Part shown: positions 25,992-33,715 of the stretch, piece after piece
Layout of the letters: each line of letters starts with the position of its first letter
Position numbering within the stretch: the first letter of the stretch is position 1
NCBI GenBank assembly: GCA_944326855.1
Contig: CALVFO010000029.1
Coordinates: 105,363 to 169,362, forward strand
Source of the DNA: an uncultured Alistipes sp.
GTDB taxonomy: Bacteria > Bacteroidota > Bacteroidia > Bacteroidales > Rikenellaceae
Direction: 5' to 3'
Length of the DNA: 64,000 nucleotides
Position numbers and translations under genes: made by a program
Notes under the pieces: generated by a model
Database searches by the model: none
What the model saw: only the letters and a program-made list of their open reading frames with translations
Told to the model about the DNA's origin: nothing

Positions 25992-26618
25992 ATGGAAAAC
26001 AAATTGCAAGAATTGACCCAGAAACTCTACGAAGAAGGGTTATCGAAAGGAAAGCAAGAAGCCGAGCAGATGGTCGCCGACGCCCGCAAACAGGCCGAAA
26101 AGATCGTCGCCGACGCCCGTAAACAGGCCGACGAGCTCCGCAAACAAGCTGAAAAGAGTGCCGAAGACCTCAAAAAGAACACCCTGACCGAATTGGGGTT
26201 GGCTGGACGCCAGATGGTCGGTACGCTCAAAAGCCAGATCGAATCGCTGATCGTTTTCAAAAGCACGTCCGACGCCGTGAGTGCCGCCAACGCCGATCCC
26301 GAATTCATCAAAAGTCTGCTGTTGGAAATCGCCTCGCACTGGAACGGTGCCTCGTCTTCACGCGTCGACCTGAAAGCGGTTCTGCCCGCCGACAAACAGG
26401 CCGCGCTGGAAAAAGTGCTGGCCTCCTCCGCCACGAACGACCTCAATGCCGGCGTGGAAATCACATTCGATCATAAAGTCAAATCGGGCTTCAAAATCGG
26501 TCCCAAAGACGGCAGTTATTACGTCAGCTTTACCGATGCCGATTTCCAGGCGCTGCTGAGCGAATACCTCCGTCCCAAAGTTGCCGAACTGCTTTTCGGC
26601 GACGGGGCCCAATCATGA
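25992..26618 (+). CDS. atpE: V/A-type ATP synthase subunit E (peripheral stalk)
   Basis: The 208-residue protein starts with a long charged helix rich in Lys, Ala, Glu and Gln (residues about 1-70, with two near-identical heptad blocks ADARKQAEKIVADARKQADE) and ends in a compact globular domain, the architecture of the E peripheral-stalk subunit. It would tie the catalytic A3B3 head to subunit I in the membrane. In other V/A-ATPases E pairs with a G/H subunit along the coiled coil; no such gene is seen here. First ATPase gene of the operon. Confidence 0.9.
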   Translation: MENKLQELTQKLYEEGLSKGKQEAEQMVADARKQAEKIVADARKQADELRKQAEKSAEDLKKNTLTELGLAGRQMVGTLKSQIESLIVFKSTSDAVSAANADPEFIKSLLLEIASHWNGASSSRVDLKAVLPADKQAALEKVLASSATNDLNAGVEITFDHKVKSGFKIGPKDGSYYVSFTDADFQALLSEYLRPKVAELLFGDGAQS

Positions 26619-26646
26619 CAAGCCGACCGCTGAAAACCGAATAAGC

Positions 26647-27513
26647 ATGGCAAAAGAATATTATAGCTTAGTAGCGGGACTCGAAGAACTGATCCTCGAA
26701 GCCGACCACAAAGGTTTCGACGCCGTAGCCCTGCGCGAAGAGATCATCCCCGAACTTTCGAAGGGAGACCTCCGGGCGCTGCGGACCTTCTACGCATTCT
26801 ACGACGTAGAAAACGTGCTCGCGGCGCTCAGCGGCAAACAAACATTCAATCCGTTGGGCAACTACTCGGCCGAACAACTCTCCGAAGCGCTCGAAGCCCT
26901 CGGTCCATCCCAAAACGACTCCGATACCGTCCTGCCCGACTGGATGGTTCTCACCCTGCAGGCCTACAAAGCGAAGGAGGAAGGCAAAACAGACGAAGAA
27001 ATCGACACCTCGAAAAACCTGGAGAATGCGCTCTGGAATGCATTTTACGAACAGTGCGCCGCTTCGTCCAACCGCTTCGTCCGCGAATGGTTCGCCTTCG
27101 ACAAGACCCTGCGGAACATTTCGGCCGCCTACATCGCCCGAAGCCGCAAATGGCCCGTCACCGAACAGCTGGTCGGCGAAGACGACGTAGTGAAGGCTTT
27201 GGGACAAAGTTCAGCCGCCGATTTCGGGCTGCGCGGCGAGGTCGATTACATCGAATCGGTCATCGCCCTGCTCGACACCCCCAACATGCTGGAAAAAGAA
27301 CAACGCCTCGACCAGATTCGCTGGACAAAAGCCGAAGAGCTGACCACGTTCGACTACTTCAACCTCAACACCCTGCTGGCCTACCTGGCCAAAGCCAACA
27401 TTATCCAACGCTGGACGATGCTCGACCGCAAACAGGGTGAAGCGATGCTGAAGAATCTGTTGGCCGAACTCTCCGACAAATCGATCCTGCAGCGGGCCGA
27501 AGCCCAGCAATAA
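26647..27513 (+). CDS. DUF2764 family protein of the V/A-ATPase operon
   Basis: The start at 26647 gives MAKEYYSLVAGLEELIL and 288 residues; an upstream ATG at 26581 overlaps atpE and is rejected. DUF2764 is a family found in V/A-ATPase operons of Bacteroidetes and some other phyla between E and A. The protein is predicted mainly helical, soluble and acidic, with segments such as LRALRTFYAFYDVENVL and WNAFYEQCAASSNRFVREWF. Standard V/A operons place subunits C and F at this position, and subunit C is a helical protein of similar or somewhat larger size, so a role as central-stalk socket (C/d-like) is plausible. This is inference; the sequence itself shows no subunit C motif I recognise. Confidence 0.88.
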   Translation: MAKEYYSLVAGLEELILEADHKGFDAVALREEIIPELSKGDLRALRTFYAFYDVENVLAALSGKQTFNPLGNYSAEQLSEALEALGPSQNDSDTVLPDWMVLTLQAYKAKEEGKTDEEIDTSKNLENALWNAFYEQCAASSNRFVREWFAFDKTLRNISAAYIARSRKWPVTEQLVGEDDVVKALGQSSAADFGLRGEVDYIESVIALLDTPNMLEKEQRLDQIRWTKAEELTTFDYFNLNTLLAYLAKANIIQRWTMLDRKQGEAMLKNLLAELSDKSILQRAEAQQ

Positions 27514-27573
27514 ATACCGTGCGGAGTTTGGTACTCCGCACTCCCGCAAACCAAAAATAAGAGACCTAAACAT

Positions 27574-31374: not shown

Positions 31375-33227
31375 TCACACCCATGATGAAATACTCCCTG
31401 ATACTCTACCATAACGACTATCAGGATTTTCTAACCCGTCTTCAGGATTTGGGGCTGGTGGATATCACCATCACGAACTGGGAGACGACCGATTCTCAGC
31501 GGGCTTTGCTGAGTCGCATCGAGGCCTATCGGCAAGCCGTCACCCGCTTAGGGGAGCTGGCCAAGGAGGAAGCTCAGGCTTCCGCCAAAGGGGCCAAGGA
31601 GGCCTCGTCCGCCCCGGCATCGGGGAAAAACACCTACCCCGATGCAACGGCAGCCTACGAAGCCTATCGGCAAGCCGTCACCCAACTCGAAGAACTCCAT
31701 GGCGAACAGACCCGTCTGACCAAGGAGATCGAAGAGTTGCAACCCTGGGGCGAATTTGACGCCACCCAAATCGACAAACTCCGTCAGGGAGGCATCGAAC
31801 TGCACTTCTACAGTCTGTTCACCAAAGAATACGAAAGCAACCGGGAAGCGTGGTCGCAACGGTATGCCCTCAGCGAAATCAGCCGGGACAGCCTGCGCAC
31901 CTACTTCATCGTTGCCGTACCCGCGGGAGAAGAACCCGACATCGACGCCCAGCCGATCAAGGCCCCTACCGCCGACTATCGCGGCAAACAGGCCGAGGCA
32001 GACCAGGTTCGGAAAAAGATCGAGGAACAACGAACCATCCTCATCGGCTGCATCCCCTATCGGGACGCCTTCGAACAGGAAAGTCTCCGTCTGACCGATC
32101 AGTTGCATCTGGAAAAAGTCTCGTTGAGCGGGCAGAAAGAGGCTGACGACACCCTGATCCTGCTCGAAGGTTGGGCTCCGGCCGAAAAGCAGGCCGAAGT
32201 GGAAGCCGTGTTGGAACAGACCGGCGCATTCTACCTCAAAGAACGGCCTACACCGGATGACGAAGTGCCGGTACTGCTCAAAAACGGCAAATTCGCCCGA
32301 CTGTTCGAATTGATCGGTAACTTCTATGCCCTGCCCAAATACGGAAGCATGGACCTGACCCGCTATTTCGGCCCGTTCTACATGATCTTCTTCGGATTCT
32401 GTCTGGCCGACGCCGGTTACGGGCTGCTGCTGACACTCGGAGGGCTGTACATGCTGCTCAAAGGCGGTCCGAAACTCAACAGCGTCGCCAAACTCACCAT
32501 GCTGTGCGGCGGAGCGACCATCGTTTTCGGCTTCCTGATGGGATCCTTCTTCGGTATCGACCTCAAAACCTTGCCGATCTTCGAAGGAATGAAAGACAAG
32601 TTCCTCTATACGGACGATCTGTTCACGTTGGCGTTGGGACTGGGTATTTTCCAGTTACTTTTCGGGATGACCCTCAAGGTAATCACCGTTACCCGTCAAT
32701 TCGGATTCAAATACACCCTTTCGACCCTCGGCTGGATGATCGTCATTATCTCCTCGCTGGCAGCATTCCTGCTGCCCGATATGGGGGTACAGGGATTCTC
32801 CACTCAATCGCCGGCCTACTGGGTCTGCGCCGGGATCGGGCTGTTCATGATGCTGTTCCTGAACTCTCCGGGTAAAAACCCGCTGGTCAACCTGGGCTCC
32901 GGACTGTGGAACACGTACAATGACGTAACCGGTATTCTGAGCGACGTGCTCAGTTACATCCGTCTATTCGCCATCGGTCTTTCGGGCGGTATCCTGGCCC
33001 TGGTATTCAACCAACTGGCTTTCGGGTTAAGTCCCGACATTCCCGTGGTAGGCGCCATTGTCACGCTGATTATCCTGCTGATCGGACACGGCATCAACCT
33101 GTTCATGTCTACACTCAGCTCGTTCGTGCACCCGATGCGTCTGACCTTCGTGGAATTCTACAAGAGCGCCGGATTCGAATCGACTCAGCGTGCATTCAAA
33201 CCGCTTAAACACAGCGATAAAGATTAA
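31371..33227 (+). CDS. atpI: V/A-type ATP synthase membrane subunit I (a-subunit)
   Basis: The 618-residue protein has a cytosolic N-terminal half (about 1-320) with coiled coils and a membrane half with about eight hydrophobic segments. The essential rotor-facing arginine is visible in [16 protein letters not shown] at Arg531. It forms the ion half-channels against the K ring and anchors the E stalk. An unusual feature is an internal repeat: a 22-nt sequence occurs exactly at 31524-31545 and 31662-31683, encoding EAYRQAVT twice 46 codons apart around an Ala/Lys/Ser-rich linker. Start codon overlaps the atpD stop. Confidence 0.96.
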
Positions 33228-33268
33228 AAACAAACCATAATTCATGTCAAACTAAAAACAACAAAACT

Positions 33269-33715
33269 ATGACACCGATTTTATTAGCCTATGTGGGCGT
33301 AGCCATCATGGTCGGACTCAGCGGTATCGCCAGTTGTATCGGGACTTCCATTGCCGGGATGTCAGCCGTAGGCGCTATGAAAAAGAACAGCGGGGCATTC
33401 GGGAACTACCTGATCTTGAGTGCACTTCCCGGTAGCCAGGGTCTGTATGGATTCGTAGGCTTCTTTATGGTAAAAGGCTTCCTCGTACCGGAAATCACCA
33501 TGATCCAAGCCGCTGCCATCTTCGGCGCCGGTATCATCATGGGGGCAGTTTCCCTGTTCAGCAGCTACATGCAGGCCAAAGTGTGCGCCAACGGGATCGC
33601 CGCCATCGGTAACGGCCACAACGTATTGGGAAATACCCTGATTCTGGCCGCATACCCCGAATTGTACGCCATCTTGGGGATTGCTGCCGTATACCTGATC
33701 AGCGCAGCCATCTAA
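33269..33715 (+). CDS. atpK: V/A-type ATP synthase membrane rotor subunit K (c-ring)
   Basis: The 148-residue protein has four transmembrane helices as a fused double hairpin, about twice the size of an F-type c subunit. Helix 2 carries [10 protein letters not shown] (L53, S56, Q57, Y60), helix 3 carries Gln102 in [10 protein letters not shown], and helix 4 carries the carboxylate Glu131 in PELYAIL. In Enterococcus hirae NtpK the corresponding positions (Leu61, Thr64, Gln65, Tyr68, Gln110, Glu139) coordinate or support sodium, so the ring is predicted to carry Na+. Only one carboxylate per double hairpin is present. It is the last gene of the operon, followed by a strong terminator. Confidence 0.95.

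Follow-up and report, generated by a model that had tools for sequence, protein, structure and literature searches.

A seven-gene operon was analysed in a 64,000-nucleotide stretch of DNA (the window) from an uncultured Alistipes sp. of the order Bacteroidales (contig CALVFO010000029.1, positions 105,363 to 169,362). It appears to encode a reduced V/A-type rotary ATPase/ATP synthase in which DUF2764 acts as subunit C/d, no subunit F or G/H was found, and the stalks would be homodimers of subunit E. We give this reading a probability of about 0.85. The first-pass annotation, made from the sequence alone, had named the genes as E, DUF2764, A, B, D, I and K, and all seven lie where it had placed them on the + strand. 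A, B, D, I and a K with the ion-binding glutamate are present and make up the core of a V/A-ATPase. The principal features are listed below with window positions and lengths in amino acids (aa).

25992-33715, + strand: seven-gene V/A-ATPase operon, in the order E, DUF2764, A, B, D, I, K
25992..26618, + strand: subunit E, peripheral stalk, 208 aa; NCBIfam V-type E model PRK01558, E-value 4.6e-36, 124.3 bits, which falls under the model cut-off of 241
26037..26051, + strand: GxxxG (G16, G20) in the N-terminal helix of E, from an alignment in which canonical E has a four-residue gap
26647..27513, + strand: DUF2764 protein, 288 aa; PF10962, 183.6 bits
27574..29340, + strand: subunit A, catalytic, 588 aa; NCBIfam PRK04192, 755.6 bits; PF00006
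29354..30679, + strand: subunit B, 441 aa; NCBIfam PRK02118, 685.5 bits; start ATG at 29354 taken from the sequence
30760..31374, + strand: subunit D, rotor shaft with trimmed head, 204 aa; NCBIfam PRK02195, 221 bits
30868..31200, + strand: head region of D, residues 37-147, between two anchors; 111 residues, from alignment
31371..33227, + strand: subunit I, membrane stator, 618 aa; PF01496, 55.8 bits, over cut-off; NCBIfam PRK05771 models, E-value 7.8e-70, under their cut-off
33269..33715, + strand: subunit K, ring subunit, 148 aa; PF00137

DUF2764 is most likely a much diverged and shortened subunit C/d itself, judging by sequence comparison and a predicted structure, and not a substitute for a missing C. 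The first-pass annotation had proposed a genome-wide search for a separate C gene. Canonical C (PF01992, vATP-synt_AC39) has no match in the window genome at E-values up to 10; the window DUF2764 protein itself is not matched. Among 247 genomes of the order, PF01992 exceeds its curated cut-off in 12, each time on the DUF2764 protein. At E-values up to 10 it matches in 45 of the 247, the 33 under the cut-off being DUF2764 places and unrelated frames. The best match among DUF2764 relatives starts at profile position 70. The claim that the operon holds no recognisable C is therefore true of the window protein, which the Pfam model does not match, but not of its relatives. When whole families are compared by profile, DUF2764 matches canonical C at 91.1% (E-value 1.1e-6); among the controls, six other subunits reached 2.0% at most and 100 shuffles reached 0.7%.

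The predicted structure of DUF2764 is globular and all-helical, as had been expected from the sequence, and the fold comparison with C/d that the first-pass annotation had also proposed gave a d/C-like fold. The model aligned to C/d across residues 1-271; the 19 top rows came from one kind of complex and covered most of it. The fold alignment excluded near-copies with more than 80% likeness, as well as five proteins that had no clear ATG; four of the five were restored from a conserved start, and L113 stayed out. The canonical C of L180, split over two frames, was dropped and not joined, and the C-like frame of L182 (27.5 bits) was left out. When solved structures were searched by sequence, DUF2764 retrieved only a chain named P7 (E-value 0.66) and Pumilio (E-values 0.061 and 0.23), which were rejected, and a profile search of PDB sequences with DUF2764 returned no C/d chain. 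As these searches were unproductive, the case for C depends on the Pfam profile, the profile-profile comparison and the fold.

Gene position is a further shared property. The DUF2764 gene lies within the V/A-ATPase operon, next to E and before A, with no second C gene; in four canonical operons C comes directly after E, before F and A. DUF2764 differs from C/d in length (272-288 aa, against 324-370 aa in four canonical C, or about 35-100 residues shorter) and in being filed in Pfam as a family of unknown function. No link between DUF2764 and C/d was found in the open-access papers and excerpts consulted; the assignment of DUF2764 to C/d, together with linked changes in D and E, seems to be new here. 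The proposal that DUF2764 replaces C, F and G/H can be kept in part. The socket role is supported by the PF01992 matches of sister proteins, the profile comparison with its controls and the fold, but the protein most likely is C, and it does not take the places of F and G/H, for which no gene was found in a thorough search for F and a weak one for G/H.

Two other roles for DUF2764 have to be weighed. It might be a peripheral-stalk or assembly protein which stands in for G/H as the partner of E; its gene is directly 3' of E in 80/80 related loci, and a stalk partner is what appears to be missing. However, the same position after E is held by C in the four canonical operons, the predicted fold is globular, all-helical and like d/C, and the DUF2764 profile reaches 91.1% to C against 0.2% to canonical G, which makes a stalk role highly improbable. 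The likeness to C/d might also be that of a convergent helical bundle with another role. Several points on this side weigh against the assignment to C/d: helical proteins reach middling fold scores by chance, the short DUF2764 forms of some relatives (described below) show no direct similarity to C in profile comparison, and no C/d chain was retrieved from the PDB by profile. Against convergence stand the sequence evidence for C likeness, with its shuffled controls, and the agreement of the 19 top fold rows on one kind of complex over most of the model; we consider it a shade less probable even than a stalk role.

Subunit F appears to be absent, as the first-pass annotation had claimed. PF01990 has no match in the window genome at E-values up to 10, the model being over its cut-off in 6 of 14 control genomes, and none of the over-cut-off matches in the 247 genomes is a credible F. 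Candidates over the cut-off in two of the 247 were rejected; they are pieces of 411- and 475-aa frames in genomes without DUF2764. Operon gaps of more than 180 bases (10 gaps in 95 loci) contain no F, G or C match at E-values up to 1. Subunit D keeps its coil, but its head is 10-14 residues shorter than in the canonical D examined: a length of 111 residues is shared by the window D and 71/71 relatives kept, against 114 in two alphaproteobacterial D and 121-125 in six canonical D. The trimmed head is consistent with a missing F. In the excerpted text of PMC3665681, A3B3D of the Thermus enzyme is called the minimal rotary unit; a rotor without F would thus be workable. Because no F was found, the operon is classed as a reduced variant of the V/A-ATPase and not as a full member.

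Subunit E is the sole stalk gene of the operon. Its family profile matches canonical E at 97.1% in hhalign (E-value 5.3e-11), and relative to canonical E it carries four extra residues, which create a GxxxG/A motif. Among 80 rows (79 loci and the window), GxxxG is found in 69 and GxxxA in 11, whereas none of five canonical E has GxxxG within the first 60 residues. GxxxG is a helix-packing motif and is linked to homodimeric stalks of the FliH-like type. For G/H, TIGR02926 matches nothing in the window genome except, below its cut-off, the coil of E; this search is weak, as the model was over cut-off in 3 of 14 control genomes although 8 of the 14 carry D. No G/H gene lies between the genes of the window operon, and none was seen in the larger gaps of relatives. 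Since no G/H was found, a pairing of E with itself is proposed: by analogy, the stalks are most likely E homodimers, aided by the GxxxG/A face of the N-terminal helix. The b subunit pairs with itself in many bacterial F-type enzymes, according to the excerpted text of PMC9244403. Because coils match one another, the similarities of the E coil to b subunits, phasin and DivIVA were not counted as evidence, nor was its match to canonical G (33.1% over 15 columns).

It is also conceivable that the enzyme is complete, its F and G/H being the products of small, diverged genes at other places in the genome. Coils of the G/H kind are difficult to detect, TIGR02926 was over its cut-off in few of the controls, and the genome is a draft of 2.48 Mb in 55 contigs that is 93% complete, so that every absence retains some doubt. 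Such a complement is nevertheless unlikely, given the negative F searches in the window genome and in the 247 genomes, the larger operon gaps of the 95 loci, where no frame resembles F or G, and the alterations in the D head and the E motif; moreover, Bacteroides fragilis carries the same seven-gene operon (excerpted text of PMC10197588). The last alternative, fusion of F and G/H into other subunits, is the least probable of all, and nothing was found in its favour. The lengths in the window, with canonical ranges in brackets, are E 208 (183-227), A 588 (589-594), B 441 (457-479), D 204 (203-237), I 618 (638-672) and K 148 (157-175); none exceeds its canonical counterpart by 100 residues, which argues against a fused F or G.

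The order E-DUF2764-A is kept in all 80 related loci, and the complete seven-gene order in 70, three of them with a split frame. Eight of the other ten loci reach a contig edge. The remaining two, L041 (Emb289P1bin57) and L068 (Th196P3bin126), both from Bacteroidales, read E-DUF2764-A-B, with no D, I or K in more than 4 kb downstream of B. Among 33 whole-genome loci, E-DUF2764-A is found in 32, and the last reaches a contig edge. For the family profiles, frames of 0.8-1.3 of the median length were kept. DUF2764 is present in 90 of the 247 genomes, D is over its cut-off in 92, and both occur in 88; with the recurring gene order, this co-occurrence means that the arrangement is no accident. Two genomes of the order (G345 and G408) have DUF2764 only. 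Four have D only: in three the contig breaks off shortly before A, within A or within B, and the fourth, G412 (locus L162), encodes a protein of 168 residues in the interval from E to D. In an even sample across the phylum DUF2764 occurs in 6/296 genomes; none was found in viral contigs. Unrelated frames, named by eye, lie inside the operon at two loci: in L169 (4780-6645) an ATP-binding-like frame and a neighbour separate A from B, and in L161 (1158-3020) a universal-stress-like frame separates B from D.

The socket seems to erode step by step across relatives, as far as lengths and alignments can tell. Seven genomes of the order (L164-L170) have DUF2764 frames of 195-221 aa, which lack the stretch corresponding to about residues 54-125 of the window protein. 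The 168-residue protein of L162 is over the DUF2764 cut-off at 27.1 bits and is the smallest C-like protein found. Its operon (2329-9498) reads A-B-E-C'-D-I-K and has a very long-branched A subunit. Alphaproteobacterial plasmid operons (Qingshengfaniella, L175; Tateyamaria, L176) have a seven-part plan in another gene order, B-D-I-K-E-C'-A. Both genes preceding A are annotated as hypothetical; these frames span 4591-5974 in L175 (E and a C-like frame) and 4588-5959 in L176 (E and two small frames). The first is E by profile (98.7%) and carries GxxxG. The second in Qingshengfaniella (C', 229 aa) matches the DUF2764 profile at 92.2% and has no match to canonical C directly (0.7%). In Tateyamaria the place of C' is taken by two annotated hypothetical frames, one of 184 aa and one smaller. 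In an A-subunit tree of 23 rows, 15 Bacteroidales-type and two alphaproteobacterial sequences are set apart from six canonical ones with a branch support of 100/100. The branch to the canonical sequences has a length of 2.65; the tree is unrooted, and its L162 row sits on a long branch.

The ligand set of K in the window, read from an alignment, is L53, S56, Q57, Q102 and E131, at what we take to be the ligand positions of the Enterococcus ring. LSQQE in the window corresponds to LTQQE in E. gallinarum K and fits a Na+ set of the Enterococcus type; 69 K of relatives have LTQQE (67) or ITQQE (two). From these residues the enzyme is probably Na+-coupled. The same ligand comparison with Enterococcus is made in the excerpted text of PMC10197588. 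Alphaproteobacterial K ligands differ (MSQQE, FTFQE), so Na+ coupling need not apply to the whole lineage. Neither the window genome nor the two further genomes sampled from its family yielded an F-type gamma subunit, which is also absent from 27 of the 94 genomes of the order that carry the V-type enzyme. The reduced enzyme may thus serve as the sole rotary ATPase in the window genome and these two relatives.

In the proposed machine, DUF2764 would form a helical funnel on the K ring which grips the lower end of the D shaft; this position is suggested by homology and the predicted fold. The rotor would consist of D, DUF2764 and the K ring, with no F found, and the stator of A3B3, I and E, in stalks where E would be paired with E via the GxxxG/A face. 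A broader proposal is that these operons define a distinct rotary ATPase branch that makes do with D, E and C/d out of the usual five stalk parts, with an F-less rotor on a shrinking socket, E-homodimer stators and a role as the sole rotary ATPase in some Bacteroidales. C/d has three lobes, and under the same proposal the sockets of some relatives, still in the operon, would lack about one of the three, or more; the odds for the proposal as a whole are about even.

Intergenic distances within the operon are 28 bases (E-DUF2764), 60 (DUF2764-A), 13 (A-B), 80 (B-D) and 41 (I-K), and the D and I reading frames overlap by 4 bases. The gaps are too small for an additional 100-codon gene, and none lies between the operon genes. 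Two minor features are as follows.

26061..26131, + strand: tandem repeat of a 33-bp unit in 2.2 copies, giving an 11-residue repeat in the E coil; Tandem Repeats Finder score 114
33752..33788, + strand: hairpin with a T run after it, a likely terminator 3' of K; read by eye

The hairpin is absent from the list of a consensus scan. A 26-base direct repeat in I (31520-31545 and 31658-31683) encodes EAYRQAVT twice, and its copies flank an Ala/Lys-rich stretch in the N-terminal part of the subunit. A DUF4301 gene (24489-25967, 492 aa, PF14134 at 688.9 bits) ends 24 bases upstream of E. It was rejected as a conserved part of the operon; a relative lies just upstream of E in 3/3 family loci (L171-L173) and in 0/80 others.

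A, B, D, E, I, K and C/d are held in common with the canonical V/A-ATPase of the Thermus and Enterococcus type; the window operon differs in having no F or G/H found, a shorter D head and the extra GxxxG/A in E. The operons of Chlamydia and Borrelia presumably follow the same seven-gene plan, and we take chlamydial CT309 to sit between E and A in its V-ATPase operon; CT309 may be the chlamydial C-like socket. In a test for secreted effectors it is listed as not secreted (excerpted text of PMC12671076). The catalytic subunits of Chlamydia, Borrelia, Treponema and Bacteroides are called very divergent in a reviewer's comment printed with PMC2359735, as excerpted. That the arrangement is known in Bacteroidetes, as the first-pass annotation stated, is confirmed by Bacteroides fragilis. 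The excerpted text of PMC10197588 describes a V-type operon of seven genes with DUF2764 second, fewer subunits than other systems and conserved Na+ ligands; mutants in its genes were nearly undetectable in deoxycholate. The enzyme is described there as not functionally characterised, and within that excerpt DUF2764 is given no role and no socket is named. Bacteroides fragilis also has an F-type synthase, unlike the window genome, where no F-type gamma was found.

With this assignment, a Pfam family hitherto of unknown function acquires a likely role, in an operon which matters for survival in a bile acid in Bacteroides fragilis (excerpted text of PMC10197588), and the lineage's missing-subunit puzzle is reduced from three to two. 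It raises the questions of whether a V/A motor can be coupled without F and whether stalks can be built from E alone. The size series from C (324-370 aa) through DUF2764 (272-288 aa) and the short forms (195-221 aa) to the 168-residue form would be a natural experiment on the minimal socket.
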